Source of the DNA: Ischnura elegans
Taxonomy: Eukaryota > Arthropoda > Insecta > Odonata > Coenagrionidae
Assembly: GCF_921293095.1 (NCBI RefSeq)
Contig: NC_060248.1
Coordinates: 78,437,243 to 78,501,242, forward strand
DNA: 64,000 nt
Direction of reading: 5' to 3'
Of this stretch, positions 31,880 through 42,272 are shown piece by piece; within the stretch, counting starts at the first letter, position 1; every line of letters begins with the position of its first letter. The notes under the pieces were generated by a model. The model searched no databases and was not told the DNA's origin. It worked only from the letters and a program-made list of their open reading frames with translations. The position numbers and the translations under genes are program-made.

Positions 31880-32320
31880 TCTCACAAACTTTCTTAAGTC
31901 ATTCCAGCTCTTGGACCAAGCCCAGCATGGCTTCCTAGCTGGGAAATCCACCACCACTGCCGCATTTCAGCTACTTCGCCATATCCACAAGGCCCTTGAT
32001 AGTGGAAATGGTACACTCGGGATCTTTTATGATCTTAGTAAGGCTTTTGATAGTATCAATCATAAGATACTATTCTCCAAAAACTCTCAAGGCTAGGGAT
32101 TAAGGGCAATGCCATGCTTTGGGTAAAATATTTTTATGAATAAATCTAAATCTTAATATTGCTGCCAATCAGACACTGGCTATAACATAACTCTGTATAA
32201 ACCACTTCAAGTATGCCAAGGTGTCCCCCAAGGCTCATTATTTTTGGACCCCTGCTCTTTATAACTTTTATAAATGACCTTCCATGTTCAATTTCAGTTG
32301 GTAAGCTACTATGAAGGAAA
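31880..32320 (+). mobile_element. LINE reverse transcriptase fragment
   Basis: Encodes QHGFLAGKSTTTAAFQLLRH, GIFYDLSKAFDSINHKIL and, after frame changes, a form of GVPQGS and LGPLLFITFINDLP (near 32220-32285). These are reverse transcriptase motifs of the Jockey/CR1/I group of LINEs, distinct from the copies at 17.9 and 35.6 kb. Both ends are missing. Confidence 0.72.
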
Positions 32321-32661
32321 TGCCTTAAGCCTTATTTTTCTTACTCTCAAACCTTTATAAAACCATAAGACCTTATCTTTTTTATGATTAATCTTTATCC
32401 CTCATTTCTTAAAGTGTTTATCTATGGCACCCACCAGTTTCTGCAAGCCTTTTGCATAATTGCTTATTAATGCCTTTCATCTTCGAATCTAACTGATTTG
32501 AACATCAAATCTCCTGCTTTAATTCTTATAACAAATGTCAAACAGCTTTGGTAACAACAGTTGTCTCGTCCAATGCTATTCCTCCAGACTCTATTCGCCA
32601 GCATGTCTTTTGTTCTTAATTAACAGTGTCCGGTGATACCCTGTGGAAATGTTTGATCTCT

Positions 32662-32767
32662 ATGAGAATAAACTATGAATGGTGATAATACCTTGATAAT
32701 GACACTACGTGTTGAAACTGGGTCGGTATTTAAATAAAATTGTGTGGAAGTTCAGTTTATTCTCATG
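32662..32767 (+). mobile_element. Penelope-like element tail with short inverted ends
   Basis: Starts ATGAGAATAAACT and ends AGTTTATTCTCAT, an inverted pair. The middle matches the tail of the element at 40.2-41.0 kb, including AATAAAATTGTGTGGAAGTT. The bases before it (GTGGAAATGTTT near 32644) also match those before the 40.2-kb copy (40210), so both sit in the same larger repeat. Confidence 0.5.
32687..32730 (+). ncRNA. Hammerhead-ribozyme-like motif
   Basis: Stem I AATACC with GGTATT; core TTGATAA in place of CUGAUGA; stem II GACAC with GTGTT; GAAA; then a short arm ending GTC before stem I closes. Order and spacing fit a minimal hammerhead, with one extra base between the core and stem II. 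Activity is not implied. Confidence 0.4.
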
Positions 32768-33272
32768 TACATACGTCTTTTGTTGCCTGAGTTGTGCACA
32801 TATTTTAAATTTTTTATCTCTTTTCCTTTTTTGCATTTTATAGCTTCCTTATCCTCATTATTGTGTAGATGTTCCTTGTTACGTTGTCTCATTGCTATTG
32901 TCTTCTTTTTCTCTTCATTCCTGAATGTTGATAAGTCTCAACAAAGAATTTTCATGATAGAGACCTCAAATGCCTTGCCTCCCACTCAGTCTTTTCTGGC
33001 ATTTTTCCCTTAGGGTCAGGCCCTGTTTGATGAGTTTCTTGGGATCACACGTTGGAATGTTTTAAGGGAAGAGATAAGATGTTTTCAGAGTTTTCCATGC
33101 CCATTTTAAATAGTGTTTTTCATGACACTCCATCACATGAATTGTAATTATGTGACGCAACCAGAGAAGGGAACAGAGGTTTATTGCACTTGTCTTGAGA
33201 ATAAAAAGGCTTTAAAAAAATATTCATGGAATGTTTATGTTTAGTGAGAGGAAAAGTGAAATTTCGAGGCAA

Positions 33273-34184
33273 TAGGGTAGTTTCCTTCATCAAAGAAAAC
33301 TTTTTGAGAATTTGAATTTACTCGCATTGAGTGTGTTATGTAGTTCTAAGTTGTTTGCGCTACATGCATTTCGTGATCAGCGCCACTGAGGCATTGCGTT
33401 TTTTTTGTACATTCTTCTACATCGTTCTCTCTCCAGTCAGACACTTACTGCCCGGCCGAGAGCAAACATGCGGAGCAACTAGAGAGAATAAAACCAGCTG
33501 CCGGAGAATTTCTATGCTCATTCCGTTTTACATGGAACAAAAACGAAAGGCATTGGTTGCGATTCGTTACCCACCATTAGTGTATTCATCATATACAAAT
33601 TATTTGGTTTTAGAAATACTGGTTTAGACGAATGGCAATGGTCAATTTTATCCTCATTTGAAAAAGGCCACATTGGCACCCATGTGATGCCACTCCAAGT
33701 GACGTCACAGGGACCTAGTTTCTATACGAGTAGATAGGAGTTTTATATCGCCTGAGATTACTAATGCATGCATGGGGCACAGAGCTCAGGGAAACATGTC
33801 TTAATAGTCACCTATTAAAACTGCCTAAGGTCGGAAAGTTTTCTTCGTTTGAAAAGGTAATAATAATCCTTATTTAAGCCAAGCGCTACCAGCTAGCAGG
33901 GTACTCAGCTACCTGCTAGCATCCTGCGTCGTATCAGCGCTCAAAGCCTCGCCCCAAGGTCACCTCACTTGTGGCAGCGGGAACCAGAGCGACGTCACTC
34001 GGGGTTTTCCCAGCATTCATACTTAGCCATCGCATTTTCGCACGCTTGAAAATTTTCACTTTTCATATAATCGCAAAAAAATATGTATCGTCATTTAAAA
34101 ATCTAAAAGCGTGAAATACGTACTCCAGGAGTAATAATCTTTCGATTCAGGCAATAAAAAAATATGTAATAGGAAACCACCCTA
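33273..34184. mobile_element. Candidate MITE with TA flanks
   Basis: TA-GGGTAGTTTCC at 33273 faces GGAAACCACCC-TA ending at 34184: 11-bp inverted ends with one mismatch and TA duplications around 908 bases. The interior is GC-richer and includes two TGACGTCAC-like sites (33699 and 33991). Ends are short, so the call is tentative. It lies just upstream of the methyltransferase start and may contribute promoter sequence. Confidence 0.45.
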
Positions 34185-34322
34185 TTCTATGCAGAGGGAG
34201 AACAAAATATTCCTTATTATGTTCAAATATTGATATTGTTTATATTCTAATGGTATTTTTTGAGTTTTGTGACTTTGTATGAAATAATCCCATGAGAGGG
34301 TATCTTTGTTTTAATACTCAGA

Positions 34323-37300
34323 ATGCTTGCATCTTTTTACAGGCAAAAATTGAAATTCTGTGATTTTCCTAGTAACACATTAGAAATTAAGGCCCTTATT
34401 ACGAAAAATACAGAAATAACAAGAAATCACCTTACTCCTGAAATAGCTCTACACTTAATAACACCTGCGTGTCCTTTATGGAAAGCTCAGTTGGAGGACT
34501 GCCCTTTCAATGATCCATTTTGGGGATTTTATTGGCCTGGAGGACAAGCGGTCACAAGGTAGGTACTTAAACATTTGAACGATAATTTAGAAAGAAGTGT
34601 TTTCTATTTTACGTCTACAAGTTTGTAGTGGTCATCCCTTTTTCTGTGGTGAAAAAATGATTGAATAATCAATACTCTTGGTTTAAAGAGCTGTTTTAAT
34701 GACTTTGGCATTTGTGAAAAGTGTGGCTAGTTGATGTATCAGCTAACAAAAAAAAAATATCGCTCAACTTCATCATGCTGCCGCTATTGAATTTATTTTA
34801 TAATTTTTTAAGTATGTAGTTGTTTCATTATGAATAATTTATAGCAAATGAAATAAAAAGTATAAAAAAATGTAGATATGCTAAGTAACAATTTCATAAT
34901 GTTCTTTTCCCTAAGGTTCTCTTTTTTAATTACCCACTACAATTAGTGCTAATACCTCAGGAAAAAAGAGCACTACCATAGGTTTAAGGGGGTTAGTTTT
35001 TGCCAAATGTTAAAAAATGACATAAAATAATCTCCATTAGTTTAAAGTATACTGATAACTTTTACGGGAGTCACCCGCAATGCACAATCGTGCGAAAGAT
35101 CCACAGAGAAAAAAATCATTCGCCTTCAAGGCGAATGATTTTTTCTCTGTGGATCTTGCGCATAATCTCCATTAGCTGTCAGCATGCAAGCAAGCATTAG
35201 TCCATTATAATTGTTGGAAAATTTATAAAGTTTATAATTTTAAATGGTTATCGCCATCATATTTTCCAATCACAACTTGGAAAAGATTTATTTTAGATAA
35301 TCCAGCTGTTGTGAGAGGCCTATCTGTAATTGATATTGGGAGTGGCTGTGCAGCTTCAGCTATAGCATCATCAAAATGTGGAGCTAAACTGGCTATTGCA
35401 AATGATATTGATCTTGGTGAGTACAATCCTATCAAATTTTGGAATTTTTTTGTGATTTTTTTTCAATACATATTTGTAAATTAGGAAAGTTATTTTCTCT
35501 CCTGTTCTACCTTCAATTCTCAATATTAGAGTAGGACTCATACGGTGGGAATGCTAGATATTTTCATGGTGTTGGGTGACACATTTCTAATGCATACCCA
35601 GATAAATATTTTACTTAGCTTGTTCTGGGTTCAATTCATCAGATGCTACATATGGAGTATGTTTCTCTATGGAAGCGAGGCTTGGACGTTGACAGCAGCA
35701 GAGAAGTCAAGAGTGGAAGCATTCAAAATGCGGTGCTACCGAAGAATGATGAAGATAAAATGGATTGACCGTGTGAGTAACCAGGAAGTGCTTAGGAGAG
35801 TGGGAGAAAAGAGAAGCCTCCTAAAAACATTAAGCAGAAGAAGGGACAACTTAGTTGGCCACATTTTGAGGCATGATGGTCTGATGAAGACAATCGTTGA
35901 AGGACAAGTGGAAGGGAAAAAGGGCAAGGGACGGCCCTGAATGAGTTATATGGGACAGGTTATAAAGGATGTAAAAGAGAAGAAATATGTTGCTATGAAG
36001 AGATTAGCGGATAGGAGAGAGAAATGGAGAGCTGCGTCAAACCAATCTTAGGATTGTTGACTAATGATGATGTTCTGGGTTGGTAAGTGAAGTAGCAGAT
36101 TTGACTGAGCCAGAAAACTGGTTGAATGTTTATCAAGCCAGGATGATCAGCTTAATTGTGCACTGAGTTCCTTCTGAATAATCTATCGGTAAGTAATGAA
36201 GTTGTAATTGTTGTCTGGCTGATGACTTAGTTGGTTGATGCTGAAGAATATCTTTGGCTGCTCATAAGTATAGAAGCGAATCCTAAAACAAAGGCTTAAT
36301 TTTCTTGAAAGTAACTACAGCTGCAGTATCCATGTTTTTTATGCATCTCCGTTCTCTTTTGTTGTAAGACGTGATAAAAAAGGTGGTGTAGAAAACCATA
36401 AAATTATTACTGATTTGACCAAAATGTAGAATCACTTAAACTAAGCTGGAATTCATTAAGAAGAAAAAACATTTCACATAAAAACATCAAGAAAGTCCTT
36501 CATAATGAAGGTCTACATTTGAAGTCTTACATTATGTGTGATTTAATTCCCACTAAATGGGCAACCAGTGCTGGATAGGTATGGGTCTTTTTTAGGTTAT
36601 TGAAGATGAAAGTACTCTTGAGATGTGGTACTAATCAGAGGTGTTGCCTATCCATGTATGTTGAGCTTTGTCTATTTGTCTCTGCTATATTGAAGTCAGC
36701 TATAAACCTTTGTGATAGCACTCTGCTCATCAAGTCATTTAATGTTGTACATACTTAATAAAAAGAAACCTTCGGTAATCCCTCACCGTGACATTCCTGT
36801 AGTATTTGATGTTTGGTGAACATTTAATATTCTAGTGTATACTGTCATATATGTAACTATATTATTTTAATCAACTCCTTTAAGATTTCCTCTCAAGTGT
36901 ACCTCCTTTATTGTTTATATCTTTGCACCTTTGTGTGCGACTTAATCTCACTCACCTCTTAATACAGTATTTTTAATGTTTCCCATTCATGAGAAATGCA
37001 GTTATGTTTATATCCTTGGGGAGTGGCGTAATAATCAGATATCCTCTTCGTCTGTTCCTATATATGAACTTGCAATTCCTACAGGTTGTTTGGCAAACCT
37101 GTAATTTGTTTTAAAGATTATGACTTGGAGCGGCATAGCTGACAAGCTAATGAAAGATCTGGGTTCAAATCCTGGTTTAAAGTCAAATTCTGTCCTGCAA
37201 ATTGTATTTGTTGTTAATTCAGTTGATTCTAGGCTTTAAATGAAGGATTAAGGCAACATATTAATTAAAGGATATTAAGTAGAGTTACAGCAGCATTAAT

Positions 37301-39058
37301 CCTGGCATCTCCCACAATGATCTGCTTGAGTTTTAAACTGGAGGAGGATAAGATCCTTGTCTCCTGAAAAATGTAATATTTTTTATAAATCATTTCCAAA
37401 TTTCCTTTAAGCATTTCCTTACATAAATATAATATGTGTAATAGGTTTTTTACGTATTCCCTTCCTTATAATGTCAATGTTAAATACATGTATAATGTAT
37501 ATAGTATTATTACCAAATCAACACATCTTTATGAGAAAAAACTAGGTTATTTAAAATTTTGCTCTAAGATTAACCAACCAAAACAAATTTTATCAGTTTT
37601 TTTTTGTAGCCTTCAACGAATTACTGTAATGAGACATTTTTCACCCTTCACATTGCAGTGGCAGGAACAGCTGCTCGTATGAATGCTGCTCTGAATGATA
37701 CAGTTATAGAAATTTCTTCAGAAGACCACTTTGAGAGAAATGAGATGGAGAATTTTGCCAAACATCAGTACCCTTGGGATGTTGTCATCATTGGTGATTT
37801 ATTTTATGATCCAGATATGTCAAAAAGGTCAGTTAGTGATGTCGCTTTAAATTATGTACTTATGGAAATCGGAAGAACATTCTGGGGATAAAAGGAAAAT
37901 TAATTTCTACCATGCCTGAGAATACGTATATGTTATGACTTGGTGTCTAATGCAAAATTAGAGGTGGATACCCTAGGTAGGCATGAATTAAGGAAGGAAT
38001 TTTTACTTCATAAAATATACCTTCCACTCACAGACATTCATTTTGGTGTGAAATTTTACTGTCCAAGTGTCTATAGTTTTTAAAATATGAGCAATTGAAA
38101 TTTGGCAATGAACTCCATTGCTGAAACGTGCAATTCATGGTAATTTTCATGATATTTTGTTAATCAGCTAAGGCCTGCAAAATGATCCCATGCCTATCAC
38201 TAAATCCCTGCATGAAATAGTTTTGCTGCAAAAAAGTAAAATATAAAAAAATTCCACTTGTTATTTGTTTGTATGCATCCACAGGGAAAAGCCAATCGAA
38301 TGCAGACGCATGGTTCAGTTCAAAATAATCACCAATGCATGAGCAAAGGTTCTGCAAAAAAATCTTGAGTCAGGCATCTTTTTTTCATAAAAATAAGTGA
38401 TTGTTACTTCTCGCCGGAAAATTCAATTTTTTTCAAGGCACAAAAGGCAAATGAAATGACTTAATGTAGAGGACAGGTATGCTTCTACTCAAGAGAGCAA
38501 ACAATATTTGAGCATGCATTACTAAAATTTCATACAAAATATATTCACACCAAAATGAACATCTAGTTTAATGAAAATCCAAGTTGGTTGATGACAGGGC
38601 CTTGTTGAGAATGTTTGGCGAGTGAGTTTGAGAGAATGAGTTTGGCGTAGAATAAGCACTGCTCAAAATTTAATGTCACCTATGTTAAGGGTTTTCAAGT
38701 TTCATGGAGGCAAAATTTATGTTACTTATTTCCCCCGATTTAAATATTGGGTGAAATTTTTATATTCGTTGTGCACTATTGGAGTAGTTGTATGTACTAT
38801 ATAATACATTTTTCAAATTCTCCATTTCATTCCTGCTATTTCAGAGTAATGGCTGCGGTAAAAAAATGGTCATCAATGGGTGCACTCGTATTAATAGGTG
38901 ACCCTGGTCGCTATGCCTTCATTGAACTTACGAAGACAGGTAGCCAAGGCAGTCATGATGTGCCTTGTTTGTCTTTGGTTAAGCAGTATCCTCTCCCAGA
39001 ACACAGCTGCTTAGAAAACAATGGATTTTCTCATGCATCTGTGTGGAGATTGAGTTAG
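34323..39058 (+). CDS. ETFBKMT: ETFB lysine methyltransferase (METTL20 type), complete, four exons
   Basis: Seven-beta-strand methyltransferase that, in the known family, methylates lysines of the beta subunit of electron transfer flavoprotein in mitochondria. Exons 34323-34558, 35286-35416, 37659-37827 and 38845-39058 join to 249 residues (human ~262). Seen: LTPEIALHLITP and DPFWGFYWPGGQA before the fold, SAM-binding motif I VIDIGSGCAASAIA, IANDID after strand 2, the family hallmark IGDLFYDPDM, LIGDPGR, and the ending GFSHASVWRLS. The first residues (MLASFYRQKLKF) are basic and hydroxylated, as for a mitochondrial presequence. The acceptor of exon 2 (TTGGAAAAG) is weak, but the better one at 35295 would give an immediate stop. 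Introns carry a palindromic insertion, a LINE end and a SINE relic. Confidence 0.88.
35027..35175. repeat. Palindromic insertion with 14-bp target duplication
   Basis: ATAATCTCCATTAG at 35027-35040 is repeated exactly at 35162-35175. The 121 bases between end in a hairpin: arm 35092-35126 pairs with 35128-35161 around a single apex base, with one unpaired A and one mismatch. It lies in intron 1 of the methyltransferase gene. A 14-bp duplication points to target-primed insertion; the family is not recognised. Confidence 0.6.
35621..36081 (+). mobile_element. 5'-truncated LINE 3' end with 11-bp target duplication
   Basis: TGTTCTGGGTT at 35621-35631 recurs at 36071-36081. The insert encodes the C-terminal part of a common LINE protein: FLYGSEAWTLTAAEKSRVEA, CYRRMMKIKWIDRVSNQEVL, VGHILRHDGL, VEGQVEGKKGKGRP, one TGA at 35938, then an open frame to TAG at 36050. 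The 3' end is an ATGATG tail, typical of RTE-like elements. It sits in intron 2 of the methyltransferase gene, same strand. Confidence 0.8.
37110..37200 (+). repeat. tRNA-derived SINE relic
   Basis: GGGTTCAAATCCTGG (37166-37180) is a good RNA polymerase III box B, and GGAGCGGCATAGC about 35 bases upstream is a weak box A. It does not fold into a full tRNA, so a SINE head or tRNA pseudogene is the best reading. Confidence 0.35.
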
Positions 39059-39162
39059 AAAATGTCAGATTGTTAATGTTATGTTTTTATACTTTTTATT
39101 TAAGTTTCACCAGTTGTCATTGGAGTTAAATGTTTTTTTATTTGTACATATTTTAATGACTG

Positions 39163-39168
39163 AATAAA
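39163..39168 (+). promoter_or_regulatory. Poly(A) signal AATAAA for the methyltransferase gene
   Basis: AATAAA about 105 bases after the stop codon at 39056-39058, in a U-rich 3' UTR. Confidence 0.6.
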
Positions 39169-40228
39169 CTTTTAGCTACTTTATAAGACAAATATTACAT
39201 GGGGATGACTAAAGATATTTGGTCTGTTGACTTATGTTTTTTTCGTCAAGTGACTGCTAATAATTCCTGGAGTATAGCTTTTCATGTATACAATTTTGCC
39301 GGAAACCAAAAATTTTATCAATGCCCATCGGGAAGCAGTACTGAATCTGCCATTGAGATACTACTTATGCTTGGCCAAAATCTGTAAATGTCCCTTTTTA
39401 GGATGTTCACCACTACCTTGTGTGTGGAGTGTCAATATTGCTGTAATTACATGTCGAAGGCATGCCAACCTCGTTGAATCTCGAACTAAGACCAAAGAAC
39501 TACATATTTGTATAATGGGGAACTTGCAAGGGTTGTCGATTGTTGTAAAAACTATTTTGAACTGGTAAAACAGATATAATATTAGCTCGCGAAAATACAT
39601 AAAGTTTCTCCATTCATCGTCAAAGGAAATGAAAAAATTGACTGAAAATCGAGAAAAATTTCTCTGAGCTGACCACTGCGTGAAGACACCTGAGCATTGC
39701 AAAGGCCAGGCGTAACATCATAGGTGCCTAAACAATCGTAGGGATTTGGGAAATATGCTGAGCGCATGCTGTAAAATTTGTTTTGAGGGAGTATTTAGCC
39801 GCTCATCGTCTCTTTATTTTGTTCTGTTATTCTTGGGCAAGTTTTCCTATTGCTATTGTGCCATGATTATTACTTGGGATATTCATAATGTGACATTGGG
39901 ATGATGAAATACAAGCATTTTACCTCGTATAATTCAGTTATAAGAAAAATGGATGGTAACGTTGCTTCTTGTTCGAATAGTGTACCTGAAATTGATGCCA
40001 TGACCCTCATGGAATTTGTTATGACAAATTATTGCTATGAATCGGCAGAATATCGCAACATAAAAGAAACCTGTAATTTTGGAGGATAACAATCACTTTA
40101 ATTATGCACAATTGCCTCAATTTTCCCGATTTATTGGGATGATCCATGCTTCGGTGCATTTTCTAACCATGTACCACTCCATAATTCACAGTGAACGGCG
40201 ATATCGGGTGGAAATGTTTTATATCCAT
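39169..40228. other. Intergenic, no gene seen
   Basis: Only short frames without recognisable motifs. The last ~50 bases (from 40185) resemble the sequence before the Penelope-like tail at 32.6 kb and may belong to that repeat. Confidence 0.35.
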
Positions 40229-40992
40229 GAGAATAAAATAAAATGGTAAACTTCCACACAATTTTATTTACAATGTAAATCAGTGAGGTAGGAAGAGAAG
40301 TCATAGCAAACAGGAGAGGAGCGGGTGTTGGCGAAGGTTAGAAATTAAAAAAATATCTATGTATTCGCAGAGCGGGAAGGAATGTTCTGGGTTAAAAGAG
40401 GCGATTGGGTAGAATACACTTCATCGTTACAAAGATTATGCGGGCTATTAACAATTTCAAATTTCTCGTAAAAGTCCAACTTTTGCCCTTTCTCTATGTA
40501 ATGTAAAATATCAAAATCAAAAAAATTTGAATCATTGTAAACATTTTAGTAACTTTGATTTTGATATTTTACATTACATAGAGAAAGGGCAAAAGTTGGA
40601 CTTTTACAAGAAATTTGAAATTGTTAATAGCCCGCATAATCTTTGTAACGATGAAGTGTATTCTACCCAATCGCCTCTTTTAACCCAGAACATTCCTTCC
40701 CGCTCTGCGAATACATAGATATTTTTTTAATTTCTTACCTTCGCCAACACCCGCTCCTCTCCTGTTTGCTATGACTTCTCTTCCTACCTCACTGATTTAC
40801 ATAATCCCTAGTCCCTCCCCCTCCTTCAAAGACCTTCCCTCCCTTGCTTTCCACCCTACCTTCTCTTGCTGGATGGTATATATAGAACTTGGAAAGCCAA
40901 ATTGGTACCTTGATAATGACACTACGTGTCGAAACCAGGTCGGTACTTAGTAAATAAAATTGTGTGGAAGTTTACCATTTTATTTTATTCTC
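40229..40992. mobile_element. Penelope-like element fragment in head-to-head inverted arrangement
   Basis: Inner arms 40273-40520 and 40555-40802 are 248 bases each, equal in length and differing at about two positions, around a 34-base spacer. Outer arms 40229-40271 and 40950-40992 are also inverted copies. The right side has ~147 extra bases (40803-40949) that include the hammerhead-like motif. The right arm encodes FDFDILHYIEKGQKLDFYKK and an N-rich piece ending SPLL, like the region after the GIY-YIG endonuclease in Penelope-like elements. Inverted partial copies are usual for this family. The near identity suggests a recent event or gene conversion. Confidence 0.65.
40904..40946 (+). ncRNA. 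Hammerhead-ribozyme-like motif in the Penelope-like tail
   Basis: Stem I GTACC pairs with GGTAC at the end; core TTGATAA, then T, stem II GACAC-TAC-GTGTC, GAAA, CCAG, GTC as cleavage triplet. Compared with CUGAUGA the core has C3 to U and G8 to A, the two bases that pair with each other in the folded ribozyme. Confidence 0.42.
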
Positions 40993-41408
40993 AAGTACTA
41001 CTCCGTTTATTCCAGTTTCATCTAGTTTTATGCTGAAGTGAAAACACTTATTACTTGACACACTTGCAGATATTCAAGGGTTCTTCGGGAAGTATGTATC
41101 AATGGTGACCTCTTGTCACGGGTCAAGGGGAGAGTGGGAGGGATTGGGGGTGGACAAGAAAAGGGGAAGGGATTTTTTTTTGGGAGAGAAAGGAGATGGG
41201 GTGCGCGAGAAGGGAAAGGAACGTATGGGTGACCGTTTGGGGATCAGTGCACTTGAAAGAACGAGAGCCTTCTACAAATCCTTCGTTTAACACAAATGTA
41301 ATGAAAACAGCAAATAATCGTAAGTACATAATCATACATCAGATTGCCTCTTCCTTGCGGATGTATCAGTTGCTCAGGCTTCACTTTGTGGAACCATGTA
41401 TCTAATGT

Positions 41409-41764: not shown

Positions 41765-42272
41765 AATACATTATTGATAATGCTAATCGTCAAATCTAAA
41801 GATGTAAATTTTTTTTACTCACCTCAAGGGTAAAAGATATAGAGGGATGTAAAATATTAAAAAGCATTTAAAATATTTGAGCTGGCAAAGGCTTCCAGTC
41901 CTTAAGCTTAAGAGGTCATATATTATGTAACAGCGCATGGTATGACATAAAAGTGGGTTCTTAGAGGTGAAAAGAGTGCTTTCCAAGCAATGTATAAAAA
42001 TTCCCTTAAAATAGGAGATAGGGGAGAGTGCATGGATAGACAGTGGGCTTGCCAGTAGTAGTGACCGTTGAAAATGGAATAGTTCTGTGAAATGCATAAA
42101 TGGAGTAACAAAAGTAGGAAATCAGATGGAGTTCAGGGCGAGGGAAATGACTTCTGTGGCAGGAAAAAACAGAGCATTGGGCTTAAATTGAAAGATCTTT
42201 ATGAATGGAATTTCATTTTATGCCTGGCTTTAAGGAGCAAGAGGTGTCTTGATTTTTTGCGTTTCTTATAAA

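Follow-up and report, generated by a model that had tools for sequence, protein, structure and literature searches.

The window considered here comprises 64,000 nucleotides (nt) of the insect Ischnura elegans (NC_060248.1, positions 78,437,243 to 78,501,242) and harbors, on its forward strand, two short motifs with the layout of hammerhead ribozymes (HHRs), both lying among fragments of a Penelope-like element (PLE). Copy 1 spans 32687..32731 and copy 2 spans 40904..40947. The letters of both confirm the layout given in a preliminary description of this DNA: stem I, TTGATAA, then a single T, a stem II of GACAC/GTGTY, GAAA, a short arm, GTC, and the second strand of stem I. Positions (3, 8, 9, 10.1 and so on) are given in what we take to be the hammerhead numbering, which agrees with published passages. 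Position 3 thus falls on 32693 and 40910, where, as had been noted before, U stands for C; A likewise stands for G at position 8 of both copies. One extra U (32700 and 40917) separates A9 from stem II, and cleavage is predicted at 32724/32725 and 40941/40942.

Copy 2 is preceded by a TATA box, TATATATA (40877..40884, + strand), 33 nt 5' of its position 3, and is followed by the tail of a pseudo-long terminal repeat (pseudo-LTR, pLTR; 40944..40993, + strand) that stops at TTATTCTCA, where other copies continue into the PLE start codon. The hammerhead and tail of copy 1 (32689..32761, + strand) belong to family A, one of several families introduced below, and are 79% identical to the junction of a tandem array (L119). 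Upstream of position 3, the similarity of copy 1 to family A covers 4 nt of the 5' stem I strand (TACC, 32689-32692, + strand), with unrelated sequence beyond. Stem I reads GTACC/GGTAC and ATACC/GGTAT in the two window copies, and these letters were described correctly. The compensated change that had been read from them does not hold, since the upstream resemblance of copy 1 to its family extends over no more than 4 nt. The pairing A in copy 1 is probably not a substitution within the element, because it falls outside this match, and stem I covariation between the window copies was dropped. The C-to-T change in the 3' strand of stem I is also present in L018 and L021, opposite an unchanged 5' strand (GGTACC).

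Hammerhead structure and the carrying element

Judged from their sequence, both motifs are minimal type I hammerheads located in the pLTR of a PLE. The three short stems predicted around CUGANGA, GAAA and UH, with stem I open, conform to the type I layout. Stem II is paired in 488 of 555 cells among 111 different copies, most of which were found by core patterns, so that the core letters are partly given. In the 107 copies with at least 3 stem II pairs, 482 of 535 cells are paired; when the 3' bases are shuffled 500 times, the paired cells average 380 and never exceed 394. Strands slid against each other pair in 82-173 cells, and counting each stem II sequence once yields 257 of 295 paired cells (shuffle mean 204). 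Pairs 1-3 of stem I are formed in 91, 97, and 84 of these 107 copies. Stem III consists of ACCATGGT or ACCCGGGT in 72/107 and is a perfect palindrome in 74/107, as expected if two hammerheads pair via stem III. The pairing counts were not taken from the MAFFT alignment A1, which shifted family A by one column after stem III.

The extra base before stem II had been regarded as a caution. Stem II does not directly follow A9 in either class of core letters distinguished below: one unpaired U stands between A9 and 10.1. A T after A9, set by the search pattern, is present in all 2292 C3-G8 and all 2023 U3-A8 copies counted at fixed stem length. A search for C3-G8 copies with another base at this place, in which stem length was left open and the 3' portion of the pattern was slightly tighter, yielded 112 (reversed control 1), and those listed mostly belong to the same families, carrying a substitution or a short deletion. 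The extra U is therefore a trait of the whole clade. The possibility that it forms part of an AUG start (A9-U-G10.1) of the main frame was rejected: a frame opened there in family A runs into a stop after 12-13 codons, and the conserved start of the frame is found farther 3', beyond the tail (both by eye). Position 10.1 is G in 56/58 U3-A8 and 21/48 C3-G8 copies; by family, as grouped by eye, the figures are 5/5 and 5/7, and no case is made from them.

The suggestion of a Penelope-like carrier is borne out by linked sequence of a reverse transcriptase (RT) and endonuclease (EN). In the window, a stretch at 40521..40706 (+ strand) corresponds to the C-terminal 62 residues of the family A RT/EN frame (90% identical to L020, tblastn) and stops about 200 nt 5' of position 3 in copy 2. 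An inverted copy of the same frame end lies at 40369..40521 (- strand; 51 amino acids (aa), 94% identical to L020), and the two form part of a head-to-head inverted repeat at 40273..40802, whose arms (40273-40521 and 40554-40802, 249 nt) are 99% complementary. An inverted tail with the PLE frame start (beginning MDIKHFH, by eye) lies, without a hammerhead, at 40180..40268 (- strand), and an inverted start of the PLE frame adjoins copy 1 at 32617..32675 (- strand). Elsewhere in the genome, RT/EN sequence closely precedes the HHR in families A, B, C, E, F/K, J, and M. The RT-plus-EN stretches of L020 (family A) and L059 (family E) end 239 and 277 nt before their own hammerheads, and the family J frame stops about 50 nt 5' of its hammerhead. 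The RVT_1 model matches L020 above and L059 below the curated cut-off. A genome search with the GIY-YIG model gave 149 matches and led to family J and to L083, which is 93% identical to L059; families A, B, C, and F were assigned by alignment to GIY-YIG-matching copies, so that RT is combined with GIY-YIG. A search of the PDB with the L059 stretch found nothing.

Head-to-tail arrangement is seen on contig C9, where four family A EN matches follow each other at an exact spacing of 2777 bp, three of them in open frames of 833 aa. The two junctions retrieved from this array each contain a TATA motif, hammerhead, tail, and frame start. With pseudo-LTRs, inverted repeats, head-to-tail spacing, and copies that end near or in the frame start (ends placed by eye), the anatomy is that of a PLE, as known from published elements (PMC3846280 and PMC11167929, in the passages available).

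The pair between positions 3 and 8

The contact between C3 and G8 in hammerheads is known from structures and mutants. Exact patterns were counted on both strands of the whole genome (1.72 Gb, 110 contigs), with each pattern reversed as a control. The pattern with U3 and A8, TTGATAAT N13 GAAAC N2-4 GGTC, occurs in 2023 copies and that with C3 and G8 in 2292, compared with 139 for U3 with G8 and 64 for C3 with A8; all four reversed controls gave 0. Among copies with a pyrimidine at 3 and a purine at 8, 4315 of 4518 thus hold a Watson-Crick pair. A one-base decay of the core (G5 to A in the C3-G8 frame) is found 65 times (reversed control 1). The double change thus approaches the canonical core in abundance and is about ten times as frequent as both single changes combined (203), and the singles lie near the level of the decay control. 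These counts concern copies related by descent and not independent events, a kinship addressed by the tree below. From the four-way counts and the G5A control it follows that U3/A8 is a fixed alternative pair and not decay.

The copies closest to copy 2 agree with this. All 30 carry U3 and A8, 28/30 read TTGATAA, and 0/30 read CTGATGA, the consensus that the preliminary description had named as the sign of decay. These 30 family A loci were picked by similarity (40 of 1133 candidates scored), and young copies are over-represented. The expectation of a variant core conserved across the family is hence supported.

Families were delimited by eye from their stem II and tail. Several of them, which differ in stem II and RT sequence, carry U3-A8 as a rule. 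With linked RT/EN, U3-A8 is found in family A (L020 and others), B (L063, L067, L087, L090), C (L096, L124, L125, and the decayed L121), and M (L123), and C3-G8 in E (L059, L055), F/K (L122, L126, L127), and J (L024, L082, L084). Among those seen without linked RT, D has U3-A8, and G, H, and I have C3-G8. The exact consensus letters C3 and G8 are accordingly found in families E-K, and U3 and A8 in the window copies, families A-D, and M.

A 20-row RT/EN tree, with two more distant PLEs as the root, places F as sister to C (98/94), with A next (88/89), and joins B to E (90/92). Each row consists of tblastn fragments aligned to a single reference, 12/20 rows being less than half filled, and the fewest state changes required on this tree are 3. 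Forcing all U3-A8 rows into one clade is 58.6 log units worse (p-AU 1.4e-6), a test made after a quick preliminary tree had been viewed. Without M, whose only row (L123) is a long branch, a 14-row tree again requires 3 changes and gives a p-AU of 1.6e-5 for a single U3-A8 clade; holding A and C alone together without F has a p of 0.034. F/K enters the tree via one locus, and C via one locus of known state plus L121; further loci confirm the states (L124 and L125 with U3-A8 in C, L126 and L127 with C3-G8 in F/K). The state of the 3-8 pair has thus apparently changed at least 3 times, a count neutral as to direction; an exchange of pLTR modules could mimic such repeated change. That the double change keeps pairing, as had been proposed, is borne out by both the genome counts and the tree.

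Two side observations concern members of this group. L123 (G000:C2:118475400-118476000) carries a U3-A8 hammerhead with a predicted cut after GUA and a stem III of ACTAGT; its frame has 834 aa, and a neighboring match 2759 bp away may mark another tandem PLE. L081 and L086 represent a distant PLE-like clade with GIY-YIG and an RT containing YKFVDD; the stretch fetched downstream of their frame contains no hammerhead pattern.

Transcript start, cleavage and competing explanations

We consider it very likely that these motifs are minimal type I PLE hammerheads under selection for pairing between positions 3 and 8 and not for particular letters, with repeated change between C3-G8 and U3-A8, and self-cleavage is predicted. 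The RNA would fold into stem I, a core with a Watson-Crick 3-8 pair, one unpaired U, a stem II of 5 bp with a small loop, GAAA, and a tiny (near-)palindromic stem III. Each family would fix either C3-G8 or U3-A8. In transcripts of arrays, two hammerheads may pair through their self-complementary stem III, cut after GUC, and release RNAs of unit length.

Several results weigh against this explanation. Stem I is weak beyond pair 3, pairs 4-6 being formed in 54, 59, and 59 of the 107 copies, and family A stem III, mostly ACCGGGT, misses a palindrome by one base. Single-strand folds of the window copies are no better than shuffles (z of -0.87 and -0.49), and the best fold of copy 1 is not a hammerhead; these fold energies were judged uninformative. 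An Rfam search at E<=10 gave no hammerhead match in the window, nor for copy 2 searched alone, and the Rfam 15 models gave none even at L084, a relative with canonical core. A genome search with RF00008 found no match, and its controls gave none either. The GIY-YIG model does not match the L020 and L059 stretches. Other core changes are present in 4/30 of the closest family A copies (L005 and L025 at G12, L007 at A9, L023 at G5). Genomic 5' ends of family A are not concentrated at the predicted cut site: 0/7 exact tails, namely those lacking the usual base 10 nt before that site, start there. For the anole PLE hammerhead, mutants are reported to insert unaltered in vitro, and no reads start or end at the cut site (PMC11167929, in the passages available).

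Other evidence on cleavage is mixed. U3/A8 ribozymes are active in vitro, as stated in the accessible part of PMC3088659, which cites Przybilski and Hammann (2007). According to the available passages of PMC11167929, the anole hammerhead cleaves only with added protein, and C3G or G8C abolishes cleavage, which the double mutant partly restores. Among 100 listed of 245 family E tails, most resemble a sister subfamily with several more tail bases, and roughly 8, judged by eye, have an abrupt start at the cut site. Tails starting exactly there include C1:77746197-77746230 and C1:78757204-78757237; two abut an apparent inverted hammerhead. It is possible that such tails are a trace of cut RNA used as template.

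The ends of copies point to the start of the RNA. A TATA-like motif lies 27-50 nt before position 3 in 45 of 127 copies, at a distance of 32 or 33 nt in 31 of these. In 39/88 copies from families A, B, C, E, and F, similarity to the upstream family sequence breaks off no more than 5 nt from position 3 (25 of the 39 at 2-4 nt); it extends for at least 23 nt in 36/88 and is intermediate in 13/88, some of which are diverged full-length copies (L119, L090, L092). Copies ending near position 3 may represent cDNAs stopped at an RNA start just before this position, template jumping or recombination at the hammerhead being the alternative. Transcription would then begin a few nt before position 3, the hammerhead at the 5' end of its own transcript would have a cut-short stem I, and full hammerheads would form solely in read-through or multimeric RNA. 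From this a tentative idea arises, held with clearly less than even confidence: the promoter might fire inside the ribozyme, with RNAs starting mostly 2-4 nt before position 3, so that a lone transcript carries a shortened stem I and complete, dimer-forming hammerheads occur only in multimeric or read-through RNA. The ribozyme would then act as a sensor of tandem transcription, its 3-8 pair free to toggle between C-G and U-A as only pairing is selected.

Competing explanations differ in what they make of these data. Under decay, the copies would be inactive hammerheads whose C3 and G8 had mutated; both changes are transitions, the window copies are truncated fragments, and the four other core lesions mentioned above fit it. 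The counts of the four letter combinations, with a double change about ten times the combined singles, and the G5A control rule decay out; it is also contradicted by the uniform state of the 30 close copies and by the recurrence of U3-A8 in families with different stem II and RT, so that its probability is regarded as negligible. Retrozyme-like, non-autonomous circular-RNA elements in place of PLEs would account for the many copies that are short units of HHR and tail; metazoan retrozymes are small non-coding tandem repeats of about 170-400 nt with an HHR. Judged from the HHRs examined, which at many loci lie next to PLE sequence, this is very improbable: in several families the HHRs are joined to RT/EN or to the PLE frame start, and many short copies stop inside that frame start, as PLE tails do.

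If U3-A8 arose once and then passed between PLE lineages through recombination or template switching of pseudo-LTR modules, the conflict between the RT/EN tree and the HHR state would be explained; inverted copies and copies fused at the hammerhead are frequent, and captured or rearranged pLTRs are described in the PLE literature (PMC3846280, available passages). Stem II, stem III, and tails differ among the U3-A8 families, so that wide later divergence would be needed, and the HHR with its tail is too short for a tree of its own; such an exchange seems unlikely. It also appears improbable that the HHR has ceased to cleave in vivo and that its bases are kept as a promoter initiator, RNA 5' end, or RT binding site. 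The spacing of the TATA-like motifs, the upstream matches ending close to position 3, the lack of family A copies starting at the cut site, and the normal insertion of the anole mutants (PMC11167929, as far as its passages go) would suit such a role, but an initiator or binding site leaves the joint change at 3 and 8 and the covariation of stem II unexplained. Selection on the 3-8 pair of a ribozyme predicted to cleave itself is the reading preferred here.

Neighboring sequences, known systems and meaning

Other features surround the two hammerheads. Just 5' of copy 1, a decayed LINE-type RT fragment (by eye) lies at 32000-32320 (+ strand). The exons of a small methyltransferase gene at 34353-39060 (+ strand) are flanked by the PLE copies; one of its four pieces matches PrmA in Pfam, at the cut-off, and the other three have no match. 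We take the gene to resemble an ETF-beta lysine methyltransferase. A second, more distant PLE RT fragment at 41823-42096 (- strand) shares 41-53% identity with families A, E, and J. Within the PLE inverted repeat, 40472-40603 matches two Rfam miRNA precursor families with low E-values, below their gathering scores, which is probably a hairpin artefact.

Minimal type I hammerheads of PLEs were reportedly described by Cervera and de la Pena in 2014 and by Lunse, Weinberg and Breaker in 2017. The hammerheads studied here share with them the pLTR position, minimal stem III, type I layout, tandem copies, and proposed dimer cleavage (PMC6155905, PMC7761336, and PMC7229834, in the passages available). 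They are unlike those described in these citing texts in that U3-A8 is present in 2023 of the 4518 exact-pattern copies and an unpaired U is conserved between A9 and stem II. The literature search, which reached the 2014 and 2017 papers through citing texts only, found no statement of U3-A8 or of the extra U in PLE hammerheads, within the parts of the sources available. Covariation of C3/G8 to U3/A8 is itself already reported for "several hammerhead ribozyme examples" among natural hammerheads (Perreault 2011, PMC3088659, in part). The likeness lies in this covariation; here it extends to thousands of PLE copies in one genome, with at least 3 state changes on the RT/EN tree.

In the Anolis PLE "PAc" (PMC11167929, accessible passages), the HHR is likewise found at the junction of pLTR and frame, and copies end in the frame start; unlike here, it carries C3/G8, and stem II is regarded as the place where its frame begins. 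Start codon and cut site are 26 bp apart in PAc, as are A9 and the cut in window copy 2, which suggests, by analogy, that PAc may carry the same extra U. Penelope elements of Adineta vaga resemble those described here in their inverted head-to-head pLTRs, optional tail, pLTR TATA box, and RT-plus-EN frames of similar length (838-842 aa); unlike here, the word ribozyme does not occur in the available text (PMC3846280).

Taken on sequence grounds, this is a real and abundant ribozyme family of a known kind, whose core pair appears to have been exchanged repeatedly and whose cleavage is predicted. As far as checked, its scale, its recurrence, and the clustering of copy 5' ends within 5 nt of the core are new. 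The Rfam 15 models miss an abundant hammerhead clade in the copies tested, perhaps due to the extra U and the tiny stem III, and model-based hammerhead counts in animal genomes may therefore be low. With thousands of copies and at least 3 apparent state changes within one retrotransposon lineage, a single genome would represent a natural mutagenesis experiment on a ribozyme core.

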